A stretch of DNA of 40,600 nt from Christensenellaceae bacterium. Its GTDB lineage: Bacteria > Bacillota > Clostridia > Christensenellales > Christensenellaceae. The notes under the pieces were generated by a model. It had not been told where the DNA came from, searched no databases, and saw only the letters and a program-made list of their open reading frames with translations. The stretch is from assembly GCA_017523755.1 (NCBI GenBank), contig JAFWWA010000043.1:1-40600 (forward strand), read 5' to 3'. Shown here piece by piece: positions 1,801 to 4,302 of this stretch. Each line of letters begins with the position of its first letter. Position 1 is the first letter of the stretch. The translations under genes and the position numbers were made by a program.

Positions 1801-1829
1801 TTGACATCATTTTTGCCCGTTGGTAAAAT
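1801..1829 (+). promoter_or_regulatory. Promoter of the Phe leader / phenylacetate-CoA ligase transcript
   Basis: TTGACA (1801-1806), a 17-nt spacer and TAAAAT (1824-1829). This near-consensus sigma-A promoter lies 36 nt upstream of the leader-peptide ATG, so transcription should begin near 1836. Confidence 0.75.
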
Positions 1830-1864
1830 GTGCAGGAAAGTTTTAAGAGGAAAGGAGCACGGCA

Positions 1865-1951
1865 ATGAAGAATACGGTGTTTAACAGCTTCTTCGCCTTT
1901 AGGAACGGCTTCTGGTTTGAGCCGTCTGTTTGTCGTGTCCGCGTCCTCTGA
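1865..1951 (+). CDS. Phenylalanine-rich leader peptide (28 aa)
   Basis: Short ORF with a strong ribosome binding site (AAAGGAG, 1851-1857, 7 nt before the ATG). Six of residues 6-18 are Phe (F6, F9, F10, F12, F16, F18) with Trp at 17, and the TGA at 1949-1951 precedes an intrinsic terminator by about 28 nt. This is the layout of a ribosome-mediated attenuator such as E. coli pheL. The later residues (P-S-V-C-R-V-R-V-L) are not Phe-rich. The peptide itself is presumed to have no function after translation. Confidence 0.75.
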   Translation: MKNTVFNSFFAFRNGFWFEPSVCRVRVL

Positions 1952-2013
1952 TGAAGCTTTTATAGATAATGACAGATCAAGGCTTTATCCGGATACGGAT
2001 GAGGCCTTTTTTT
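1905..2013 (+). promoter_or_regulatory. Phe attenuator: protector hairpin, antiterminator and intrinsic terminator
   Basis: Terminator: a 13-bp stem (1979-1991 with 1996-2008, two G-U pairs) with a GATA loop, running into seven T (2007-2013). Antiterminator candidate: 1911-1923 can pair with the terminator 5' arm at 1981-1993 at 11 of 13 positions, counting G-U pairs. Protector candidate: ACGGCT (1905-1910) pairs with AGCCGT (1920-1925) over the F16-W17-F18 codons. The three pairings are mutually exclusive. Ribosome stalling at the early Phe codons would be expected to decide between them; that step is inference. Confidence 0.72.
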
Positions 2014-2082: not shown

Positions 2083-3384
2083 ATGGAAAGATACTTTCAG
2101 CCGGAGATCGAATGTGCTTCAAGGGAGACCATAGAGTCCATCCAGAGTGAGAGACTTGTTGCACAGGTGAAAAGAGTGTACGAGAATGTGCCTTATTACC
2201 GTAAAAAAATGGAAGAAAAGGGAGTGACACCCGACGACATAAAGAGCGTCAGTGATCTTAATAAGCTTCCGTTCCTTTCAAAGGCCGATCTCAGGGACGC
2301 GTACCCCTACGGGCTTCTCGGCAAGCCTCTTAAGGAATGCGTGCGCATCCAGTCGACTTCCGGAACGACCGGAAAAAGAGTCATTGCGTTCTATACAAGG
2401 CATGACATAGACCTTTGGGAGGACTGCTGTGCAAGGGCTATAGTCGCAGCGGGAGGCACAGACGAAGACGTATGCCAGGTGTCGTACGGCTACGGCCTGT
2501 TTACCGGCGGCCCCGGCCTCAACGGCGGGAGCCATAAGGTCGGATGTCTTACGGTCCCAACGTCTTCGGGAAATACGGACAGGCAGATAATGTTCATAAA
2601 GGATCTTAATGCCACGATCCTCTGTTGTACTCCGAGCTATGCCGCATATCTTGGCGAAAGGATGAAGGAGATGGGCATGGGCCCGGACGATATCCCGCTT
2701 AAAGCAGGCATTTTCGGAGCTGAAGCATGGAGCGAGGAGATGCGCCATGACATAGAGGCGACGATGGGGATCAAGGCTTACGATATATACGGTCTTACCG
2801 AGCTCTCAGGTCCCGGGGTCAGCTTTGAATGTTCCGAACAGAGAGGGATGCATATAAATGAGGATCACTTCATAGCGGAGATAATCGATCCCGATACCGG
2901 GGAAGTGCTGCCTGAAGGATCCGTGGGAGAGCTCGTTATTACTGCAGTCGATAAGGAAGCTTTCCCGATGATAAGATACAGGACACGCGATATCTGTTCC
3001 CTTTCAAGGGAAAAATGCTCCTGCGGAAGGACCTTCGTACGTATGAGCAAACCAAAGGGAAGAAGTGACGATATGCTGATAATCCGCGGAGTCAACGTGT
3101 TCCCGAGCCAGATCGAGACCGTTCTTATCAATCAGGGCTATCCCGCAAATTACAGGATCATCGTCGACCGCGTTAACAACACCGATACGCTCGACGTTCA
3201 GGTCGAGATGACGCCCGAGATGTTCACTGACAACATCGGTGAAGTGCAGGCGCGCCAGAAGAAGCTTGCAGACGGTATGCTCTCAATGCTGGGCATAAGG
3301 GCAAAGATATCTCTCGTGGCTCCCAAGACTATCGAGAGGAGCGAGGGAAAGGCCGTAAGGGTGATAGACAATCGCAAGATCTGA
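2083..3384 (+). CDS. paaK: Phenylacetate-CoA ligase family protein (PaaK-like)
   Basis: 433 aa, the usual length for PaaK ligases. These enzymes form an aryl-acyl adenylate from ATP and then the CoA thioester, for example phenylacetyl-CoA. Visible motifs are the P-loop-like S-T-S-G-T-T-G-K at residues 91-98, the Y-D-I-Y-G-L-T-E adenylate motif near 235-245, Y-R-T-R-D near 300, and the C-terminal catalytic lysine in R-S-E-G-K-A-V-R-V near residue 425. The start has an AAAGGAG site 7 nt upstream. A thioesterase and an ACT-domain protein follow in the same direction. Control by a Phe-codon attenuator suggests use in phenylalanine metabolism. Indoleacetate or another arylacetate is an alternative substrate that sequence alone cannot exclude. 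Confidence 0.85.
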   Translation: MERYFQPEIECASRETIESIQSERLVAQVKRVYENVPYYRKKMEEKGVTPDDIKSVSDLNKLPFLSKADLRDAYPYGLLGKPLKECVRIQSTSGTTGKRVIAFYTRHDIDLWEDCCARAIVAAGGTDEDVCQVSYGYGLFTGGPGLNGGSHKVGCLTVPTSSGNTDRQIMFIKDLNATILCCTPSYAAYLGERMKEMGMGPDDIPLKAGIFGAEAWSEEMRHDIEATMGIKAYDIYGLTELSGPGVSFECSEQRGMHINEDHFIAEIIDPDTGEVLPEGSVGELVITAVDKEAFPMIRYRTRDICSLSREKCSCGRTFVRMSKPKGRSDDMLIIRGVNVFPSQIETVLINQGYPANYRIIVDRVNNTDTLDVQVEMTPEMFTDNIGEVQARQKKLADGMLSMLGIRAKISLVAPKTIERSEGKAVRVIDNRKI

Positions 3385-3399
3385 AACGGGAGGCCTTAA

Positions 3400-3828
3400 A
3401 TGATGACTGATGATATGAAGGCGGAACAGCTTAGGGAGATCCGTGAGTTTTTTAAGAAAGACCGCTTTGCTGCTTCAAACGGCATGGAGGTCGAAGACGC
3501 CGGGAAGGGATTCTCGCTGATAAAGCTCAGGATAACCGAAGACCATAAGAATGCCCTTGGCTTCCTCATGGGAGGGGTGCTTGCCGCGATGGCTGATTTT
3601 GCGTGTGCGGTGGCCTCAGGTTCTGGTTTTAAAAACGATGTATATGTGTCCGCGGATGCGCATGTGAGCTTTCTTTCAGCCGTTAAGGGAGATACGCTAT
3701 ATGCGGCTGCCACCTGCATCAAAGAGGGCGGAAGGCTCTCATATTATGACGTTATCATAAAGGATGAGACAGGTAAGGATATTGCAAAAGCTCTCTTTAC
3801 AATGTATCGTGTAGATAAGAAGAGCTGA
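3400..3828 (+). CDS. PaaI-like hotdog-fold acyl-CoA thioesterase
   Basis: 142 aa, a typical single hotdog domain. The motif around G-F-L-M-G-G-V-L-A-A-M-A-D-F-A (about residues 48-62) matches the helix and catalytic region of PaaI/YbdB-type thioesterases, and V-S-A-D-A-H-V-S-F-L near 86-95 fits the conserved beta-strand. The likely reaction is hydrolysis of aromatic or stalled acyl-CoA thioesters, releasing CoA when the ligase upstream over-produces them. It begins 15 nt after the ligase stop, with GGGAGG as ribosome binding site. ATG 3400 and ATG 3403 are both possible starts. Confidence 0.8.
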   Translation: MMTDDMKAEQLREIREFFKKDRFAASNGMEVEDAGKGFSLIKLRITEDHKNALGFLMGGVLAAMADFACAVASGSGFKNDVYVSADAHVSFLSAVKGDTLYAAATCIKEGGRLSYYDVIIKDETGKDIAKALFTMYRVDKKS

Positions 3829-3870
3829 TGATGTTCCCGTTCTATTGTTAATAAGAAAAGGAGAATCGTG

Positions 3871-4302
3871 ATGAGTATTAGACAGATCTCGGTCTTTCTT
3901 GAGAACAGACCCGGAAAACTGAGCGAGATGACTGAACTTCTTGCATCGAAGGAGATCGACATGAGGGCATTGTCCCTCGCAGAGACAGCCGACTTCGGTA
4001 TAGCAAGACTTATAACCAATGATATAGAAGCGACTCTTAATGAACTCGTAAATGGTGAATTCATAACGAAACTGACGAAGGTACTGGCATTTGAGGTGCC
4101 GAACGAACCGGGAGGACTCAACCGCCTTCTTAAGGGCTTCAATGCCGCGGGCGTCAATATCGAGTATATGTATTCCTGCTTCGGAAGTGACAGGAACAGG
4201 GCATATATGATATTCAGCGTAGCCGATCCGGATGCTGCGGAGGAGGCGCTTAAGGAGCAGGGGCTCCTTTCACTCAAGGAAGATGAGATAGAGCTTATCT
4301 GA
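3871..4302 (+). CDS. Tandem ACT-domain protein (amino-acid-binding regulator)
   Basis: 143 aa made of two ACT domains (about 1-68 and 70-143). The first contains F-L-E-N-R-P-G-K-L-S-E-M and the second F-E-V-P-N-E-P-G-G-L-N-R-L-L, both the ligand-binding turn of ACT folds. No catalytic domain is attached. From memory, such stand-alone double-ACT proteins are found beside phenylacetate-CoA ligase and indolepyruvate ferredoxin oxidoreductase genes, where a role in sensing aromatic amino acids is plausible but unproven. ATG 3871 is chosen over the adjacent GTG at 3868 because AGGAG lies 7 nt upstream. Third gene of the Phe-attenuated operon. Confidence 0.82.
   Translation: MSIRQISVFLENRPGKLSEMTELLASKEIDMRALSLAETADFGIARLITNDIEATLNELVNGEFITKLTKVLAFEVPNEPGGLNRLLKGFNAAGVNIEYMYSCFGSDRNRAYMIFSVADPDAAEEALKEQGLLSLKEDEIELI

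Follow-up and report, generated by a model that had tools for sequence, protein, structure and literature searches.

Leader-peptide attenuation is a textbook device of enterobacteria, and T-boxes are thought to do this job in Bacillota. The region in front of a phenylacetate-CoA ligase-like gene (paaK) of a Christensenellaceae bacterium raises the question of whether a leader peptide does it there. The locus also bears on the direction in which PaaK-like ligases work in anaerobes of the gut and rumen, where aryl acids might be either salvaged into amino acids or broken down. Since the limiting amino acid can be read from the control codons, the leader would allow a direct genetic test of this direction. 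In this study, the window denotes the whole stretch of DNA that was analysed (40,600 nucleotides), which is an entire contig of a 1.56 Mb assembly with an estimated completeness of 69%. An EF-G C-terminal domain (PF00679) fused to a YacP NYN nuclease domain (PF05991) is encoded at the contig edge (22-1032). We consider it very likely that stretch 1801-2013 is a ribosome-mediated transcription attenuator that senses charged tRNA-Phe and controls paaK. The preliminary description had proposed such a pheL-type attenuator, and this reading is supported by the promoter, open reading frame (ORF) and terminator and by codons and stems that are conserved in some relatives. The features are compiled in Table 1.

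Table 1. Positions of the proposed leader elements and downstream genes in the window
Feature	Position	Strand	Details
Promoter match	1801..1829	+	-35 TTGACA 1801-1806, 17-nt spacer, -10 TAAAAT 1824-1829; consensus scan, direct reading
Shine-Dalgarno region of leader ORF	1848..1863	+	GGAG 1854-1857
Predicted stem hiding ribosome site	Shine-Dalgarno region 1848-1863 (5' strand) with 1932-1940	+	Helix 1 in 18 distinct homologues
Leader peptide ORF	1865..1951	+	28 codons, ATG start, TGA 1949-1951; homologous peptides in relatives
Predicted hairpin H1 (strands 1:2), spans control codons	1905..1925	+	1905-1911 with 1919-1925; helix 3 in homologues
Antiterminator strand of the preliminary description, retained as alternative	1911..1923	+	11/13 pairs with 1981-1993
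Preferred candidate antiterminator strand, overlaps leader stop TGA 1949-1951	1950..1960	+	11/11 pairs with 1979-1989
Predicted intrinsic terminator	1979..2013	+	Strand 3 1979-1991, loop 1992-1995, strand 4 1996-2008, T run 2007-2013
paaK-like phenylacetate-CoA ligase gene, first of controlled unit	2083..3384	+	TIGR02155 511.1 bits
PaaI-like hot-dog thioesterase	3400..3828	+	PF03061 43.3 bits (over cut-off); TIGR02286 63.2 bits (under cut-off)
Paired-ACT-domain protein	3868..4302	+	PF19571 67.7 bits

The consensus promoter that had been noted was found, with 11 of 12 consensus bases and a 17-nt spacer; this match is weak by itself because the shuffled region yields 0.7 equally good sites on average. 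Promoter-like boxes were also seen by eye upstream of homologous leaders. The leader ORF, the product of which is MKNTVFNSFFAFRNGFWFEPSVCRVRVL, has an ATG start behind a Shine-Dalgarno GGAG and contains six Phe codons (residues 6, 9, 10, 12, 16 and 18) and one Trp codon (residue 17). The earlier reading of a well-initiated ORF with six Phe codons in residues 6-18 was thus confirmed, and the short translatable ORF with clustered Phe control codons that a leader-peptide attenuator requires is present. An intrinsic terminator lies between this ORF and the first gene, as ribosome-mediated attenuation also requires. It had been described as a perfect 13-bp stem with seven T; all 13 pairs are standard, including two G-T pairs, and the seven-T run takes in the final two stem bases, leaving five T beyond the stem. 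The RNA of 1840-2030 folds with a z-score of -3.95 against shuffles, none of 200 of which folded as well.

The ligase scored under the curated cut-off of TIGR02155 (646.3 bits) with a match over the full profile; by its sequence it is PaaK-like, a putative phenylacetate-CoA ligase. The thioesterase and the paired-ACT protein probably belong to the paaK transcription unit, and an ACT gene was found downstream of paaK in all 16 leader-bearing paaK loci checked. Among the named records closest to the paaK of the window, many belong to Lachnospiraceae or to other members of Clostridia, with ruminants a frequent source.

Homologous leaders carry the main evidence. The leaders of the window and of three other loci (L083, L041 and L071) were alignable along the whole leader. 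The order is leader, trpB2, paaK and ACT in L041 and L071, with a thioesterase gene in between in L041, and leader, paaK, ACT and trpB2 in L083; trpB2 encodes a TrpB-like enzyme (NF009057, 692 bits, above cut-off). Another trpB2-paaK locus, L068, starts inside trpB2, so that its leader region is out of view. A covariance model (R1) was built on these four leaders, and 11 of the 62 rows of its match list were inspected. Besides the window, R1 recovered three strong leaders in 297 relatives (G515, G534 and G657; E 3e-16 to 2e-14), all arranged as leader-trpB2-paaK-ACT. Its weaker match (E 3e-5) was a leader in G627, MFNTRANVQHVSFNSFFGFTKVRFAGRL..., followed by a terminator and a TrpX-like ABC substrate-binding protein (NF041285, 231.8 bits, below the cut-off of 390). 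In this genome (L268 1495-1611; L295 421-3221), a leader with an SFNSFFGFTK core and a terminator precedes genes for the TrpX-like binding protein, a permease and an ATPase, and Phe-controlled aromatic uptake is possible. Among the fetched loci, R1 matched the L224 leader at E 0.021; its matches in L266, L267 and L269-L272 were hairpins without a matching leader and were not accepted.

The rebuilt model R2 matched in 16 of 103 genomes of the G737 family, 15 of them with a leader before trpB2. In this family, F(W/R/G)F...GWWF leaders precede trpB2 at 11 loci, four of which were places already seen, and FGWRW or FDWRW leaders precede it at four loci. A match of R2 in G836 (L323, E 7e-4), where no leader ORF was found, was not accepted. 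R2 also matched in three of 398 genomes of the G736 family, including that of L041, and the two new leaders stand directly before paaK. A further model, R3, matched in one of 391 genomes sampled from the class, which is that of the window. Neither R2 (leaders of L268, L224 and L154; E 1e-4) nor R3 (leaders of L268, L224, L154, L260 and L028; E 0.01) reported the remaining leaders at these thresholds; because the later models fail to recover them, these five leaders may have separate origins. The core leader element is real, but rare and patchy.

Conserved structure was assessed on 20 model-aligned sequences, 18 of which are distinct, over four helices with 31 pairs. In the 18 distinct sequences, 91.5% of pair cells were paired, compared with 36-48% after sliding the partners, and 11 of the 31 pairs had changed on both sides; none of 500 shuffles reached the paired-cell and both-side values and one reached the number of pair types. 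All of these figures flatter the structure, as fitting to the model shaped the alignment and the sequences share ancestry. Paired cells amounted to 87.0% in the Shine-Dalgarno stem, 72.2% in a two-pair helix, 94.4% in H1 and 94.4% in the terminator; within the Shine-Dalgarno stem, two of the inner pairs are lacking in nine of 18 sequences. The alignment of leaders upstream of homologous ligase genes suggested in the preliminary description thus turned up both conserved Phe codons and covarying stems in some relatives. Across 12 aligned codons of 14 leaders, 4, 5 and 10 sites varied at codon positions 1, 2 and 3, respectively, and this excess at the third position indicates that the leader ORF is translated. 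The core peptide motif FF(A/G)F..G(W/F/Y)(W/F)F recurs across leaders. The window leader carries a single additional base behind Phe18 that moves the last peptide residues into another frame, and the RNA is still alignable with its relatives, which argues that the RNA matters beyond the peptide.

PaaK relatives were present in 44 of 61 genomes searched. In total, 229 paaK loci were scanned in batches of 30 (window included), 80, 30, 29 and 60; L083 and L148 are the same locus, and other genomes may recur. Leaders were accepted at eight distinct paaK loci, namely, the window, L028, L041, L071, L083, L154, L224 and L260, and the candidates at L074, L165 and L222 were not accepted. A detector that demands a Phe/Trp-rich short ORF, a Shine-Dalgarno-like site and a strong terminator within 420 nt of paaK matched six of 227 loci, against one match in 10 × 227 dinucleotide shuffles. 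With other residue pairs, it matched seven loci each for ST, PR and RK, six for LM, five for LI, four each for IV, GA and KN, two for VA, one for HQ and none for DE and YC. Most of these alternative pairs are presumed to be more frequent than Phe plus Trp. Codon count alone is no proof because other pairs give 0-7 loci, and the proof lies in the homologous RNA family.

Several observations describe the surroundings of these loci. Of the 229 loci, 115 have an iorB gene no more than 400 nt upstream of paaK, and every accepted leader is at a locus that lacks one there. The start of iorA is visible in 70 of the 229 loci, before which one weak candidate leader (that of L222, not accepted) was seen. 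In G001, the only same-genus genome compared, a similar promoter stands directly before paaK with neither a leader nor a covariance-model match to one. This absence and the rarity of the element weigh against the proposed attenuator. A direct DNA search with 1780-2082 across 18 genomes of the family found only the window, and the next-best among the matches listed had E 0.197. In L260, a Phe/Tyr-rich leader with a strong terminator (2678-2767 and 2794-2865) lies before paaK, directly behind a tRNA-Ser gene. On the reverse strand of L028 (G023), a GTG-started Phe-rich leader with a terminator of -27.8 kcal/mol precedes a more distant paaK (55% identity).

The control codons vary with the genes downstream. 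Where paaK is present and trpB2 is not in view (window, G903 and G1017), the leader has 0-1 Trp: the window leader, with GFWF, has six Phe and one Trp, that of G903 (MKIVDYKRFFGFTNGYFFSRQFVVPKLEP) six Phe and no Trp, and that of G1017 (MKISSYDFFFGFTGGYFFSREFVVPRLEP) seven Phe and no Trp, each directly before paaK. Leaders before trpB2 and paaK have 2-4 Trp in all 13 cases of the alignment, 12 with GWWF and one (L083) with GWWL; 11 of the 13 have paaK alongside trpB2 (L041, L071, L083, L263-L265 and five fetched loci), and the sequences of the two others, L311 and L315, break off within trpB2. Four leaders precede trpB2 alone, each with one Phe and two Trp; two of these loci have no paaK in the stretch fetched, and the other two are on contigs that end about 1.0 and 0.35 kb past trpB2. 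The paaK leaders of L154 and L224 are Phe-rich without Trp. By this sequence comparison, Trp codons matter besides Phe in the leader family, according to the downstream gene. In the leader tree, the paaK-only leaders group with weak support (0.543) and the trpB2-only leaders form one clade, so that the match between codons and targets represents only two or three evolutionary events.

From the anatomy, the homologous leaders, the covarying helices and the codon-target match, we infer ribosome stalling and a switch as follows. When Phe is plentiful, the ribosome would reach the stop codon and cover 1950-1960, H1 could re-form behind it, strand 3 would pair with strand 4, and transcription would stop before paaK. 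When Phe is scarce, the ribosome would stall at Phe codons 6-12 or 16-18, leaving H1 opened or blocked; the free 1950-1960 would then pair with strand 3, and 1911-1923, when free, may do so or help. The terminator would not form and paaK, the thioesterase gene and the ACT gene would be transcribed. In the absence of translation, H1 and the stem hiding the Shine-Dalgarno site could both form, which would favour the terminator. This is the least certain part of the cycle, because strand 3 also pairs upstream when the window RNA is folded with no ribosome, beginning at the ATG and stopping short of strand 4.

Two strands compete for the role of antiterminator in this scheme. The preliminary description had given the role to 1911-1923 paired with 1981-1993, and the 11 of 13 pairs it reported were found, at -15.4 kcal/mol against -16.4 kcal/mol for the strand at the stop codon. 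There is a small but real chance that 1911-1923 acts as the antiterminator and that pairing at the stop codon is incidental, a chance that overlaps with our preferred explanation and does not exclude it. A strand 2 that pairs with both strands 1 and 3 is the textbook layout, and window folds with the ribosome stalled at F6, F10 and F12 favour this strand; those at F9, W17 and F18 favour the stop strand, and that at F16 neither. The stop-proximal strand was chosen in every simulated stall of L083 (6), L041 (7) and L071 (6), and in only one of eight stalls in L263 and one of six in L265. When strand 3 alone was offered as the partner, 101 of 500 shuffles equalled the pairing of 1911-1923, and this strand would stay exposed if a ribosome stood at the stop codon. 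In all nine leaders of the family that were compared, pairing was stronger for the stop-proximal stretch than for the H1 region; the former was searched over a somewhat greater length, which favours it, the margin was only 0.1 kcal/mol in L265, and the H1 region of L336 was misplaced. In the pre-set region around the stop codon, 1950-1960 reached -12.6 kcal/mol (0/500 shuffles). Over the whole window leader, the best partner had -12.1 kcal/mol with the terminator loop excluded (50/1000 shuffles) and lay at 1950-1960 with -16.8 kcal/mol with the loop included (9/500). The corresponding values with the loop included were 3/500 in L154, 2/500 in L224 and 128-498/500 in the remaining nine leaders; with the loop excluded, they were 114 and 222 of 1000 in L154 and L224 and 395-966 in the rest. 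In most leaders besides the window, L154 and L224, the pairing is thus no stronger than expected from shuffled sequences. The antiterminator pairing in fixed columns was 5-8 of 8 with little covariation, and the strand of L083 lies 13-27 nt past the stop codon, not on it. In L154 and L224, the antiterminators (16 and 15 pairs; -20.0 and -18.5 kcal/mol) overlap with the UAA stop codon and roughly equal their own terminators in strength (-22.9 and -18.2 kcal/mol). Two compensatory changes separate them, one from U-A to C-G and one from A-U to G-C, in a comparison of just these two related sequences. Such a layout resembles that of the E. coli trp leader: the antiterminator strand would be hidden by a ribosome that completes the peptide and left free by one stalled on Phe. 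We regard 1950-1960 as the more likely strand in the window.

Three further explanations differ from charged-tRNA sensing more deeply. Nascent-peptide arrest of the TnaC type, in which the leader peptide would respond to free Phe or Trp while inside the exit tunnel and induce a degradative paaK when aromatics are plentiful, would suit the recurring core motif, and paaK with indolepyruvate oxidoreductase can also serve fermentation. An arrest peptide for a free ligand would be expected to retain its critical residues, whereas the window residues beyond the core lie in a different frame from those of relatives; moreover, Trp codons appear and vanish with trpB2, as codon sensing predicts, and the weaker model match precedes a TrpX-like uptake system, making this explanation clearly improbable. 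A structured RNA switch of the T-box or riboswitch type, which would bind tRNA or a metabolite directly and carry the ORF fortuitously, accords with the conserved structure and with the use of T-boxes in the group, including the match before trpB2 in G001. We judge it very improbable, because the third-codon-position excess and the target-matched Phe and Trp codons need translation; in addition, the window gave no T-box or other Rfam match at gathering scores. Most of the paaK loci inspected have no leader, as would be expected if an ordinary terminator of the upstream gene, an independent paaK promoter and a chance ORF had merely come together. This combination is scarcely credible: the promoter match precedes both the ORF and the terminator, the order of elements is preserved in homologous leaders, and shuffles rarely produce the set. 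Attenuation by a translating ribosome is the preferred reading.

The physiological meaning depends on the role of PaaK. Salvage of phenylacetate and indoleacetate proceeds through a CoA ligase and reductive carboxylation, in which enzymes of the indolepyruvate-ferredoxin-oxidoreductase type carboxylate phenylacetyl-CoA to phenylpyruvate, and thence Phe is formed. PaaK would supply phenylacetyl-CoA for Phe salvage, a role suggested by this biochemistry and the codon-gene match; control by Phe codons would be easiest to understand if PaaK contributed to Phe synthesis, which would point to the salvage direction. The genome of L083 (G061) has no match to PF00800 prephenate dehydratase, unlike the four other genomes searched; Phe auxotrophy of this organism or an incomplete assembly is a possible cause. 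In the window genome, a prephenate dehydratase gene (PF00800, over cut-off) adjoins trpB2, and iorA is separate; no leader of the paaK type was seen by eye before this iorA or the pheA-trpB2 genes, and the only other covariance-model match in this genome had E 0.14. Eight T-box matches were found in the same genome, three above the Rfam cut-off. One match below it (80.0 bits, cut-off 93), with UUC (Phe) at the specifier position by eye, precedes pheS (TIGR00468, 345.6 bits). Since this match exists besides the paaK leader, Phe appears to be sensed by two devices in this genome, a T-box and a leader peptide. With this RNA family, Clostridia would possess their own Phe/Trp leader, here alongside the T-box match before pheS.

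T-boxes and leaders also meet at trpB2. A T-box match before trpB2 in G001 (80.7 bits, below cut-off) has UGG at the specifier position by eye, so the same enzyme would stand under a T-box or a Phe/Trp leader depending on the lineage. On the reverse strand of this locus (L305), a small ORF starting MKYTKYWWRCAPN with a good ribosome site lies between the T-box (4037-3791) and trpB2; by eye, the T-box terminator is directly followed by this Trp-Trp peptide ORF. Upstream of 228 paaK loci, a regular-expression scan for the T-box motif gave nine matches, all GGTGGACGCG, which were rejected as probable coding sequence. These comparisons lead to a wider proposal, the chances of which we see as evenly balanced: that the leader is a reprogrammable scaffold for an aromatic-salvage regulon in Clostridia, in which stems are kept and the codons of the H1 loop are recoded (Trp-Trp, Phe-Trp or Tyr-Phe) to the tRNA suited to the salvage enzyme that follows, whether trpB2, paaK or both, that it replaces T-boxes in some lineages, and that PaaK is anabolic, leading from phenylacetate to phenylalanine.

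The enterobacterial pheL and trpL attenuators comprise an ORF with control codons, a hairpin over the codons, an antiterminator near the stop codon and an intrinsic terminator. The window leader is like them in its short control-codon ORF, codon hairpin and intrinsic terminator, and in its candidate antiterminator strand near the stop codon, and differs in its Bacillota host, its mixed Phe/Trp codons and the lack of any Rfam match at gathering cut-offs (cmscan of the window: 0 matches, including T-box RF00230 and the amino-acid leader families, which presumably include Phe, Trp and others). The targets also differ, being salvage-type paaK and trpB2 here and pheA or trpEDCBA for pheL and trpL. 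T-box leaders (RF00230) are likewise sensors of tRNA charging and differ in having no leader peptide. The preliminary description had called a leader-peptide attenuator unusual in Bacillota, which is only partly right, as such attenuators have been published there for His and branched-chain amino acids (PMC2965389, PMC5864092, PMC5794164). In bacilli, His leader peptides of hisS and hisZ were computationally predicted to replace T-boxes (PMC2965389). They share the leader peptide and the Bacillota host with the window leader and differ in their His codons and tRNA-synthetase paralogues as their targets; the exchange of T-box and leader at trpB2 is of the kind reported there for hisS. The ilv leader rli60 of Listeria, a leader-peptide attenuator tested by mutation (PMC5864092), and the leader-peptide-type ilv attenuator of S. 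aureus (PMC5794164) are also from Bacillota and are set apart by branched-chain amino acids and a biosynthetic operon. The uORFC-13-1 motif of Acholeplasma aroF, described as an upstream ORF with 'at least one' Phe codon and a terminator (PMC8632094), shares the Phe codon(s), the terminator and the aromatic pathway with our leader, and that description sets it apart by clade and gene. Attenuators of trp are known in actinobacteria (PMC1262725). Among the matches listed in the open-access literature, none concerned leaders upstream of paaK or trpB2 in Bacillota. The kind of system is known, and within the open-access literature searched the novelty lies in its sensor, its target genes and its clade.
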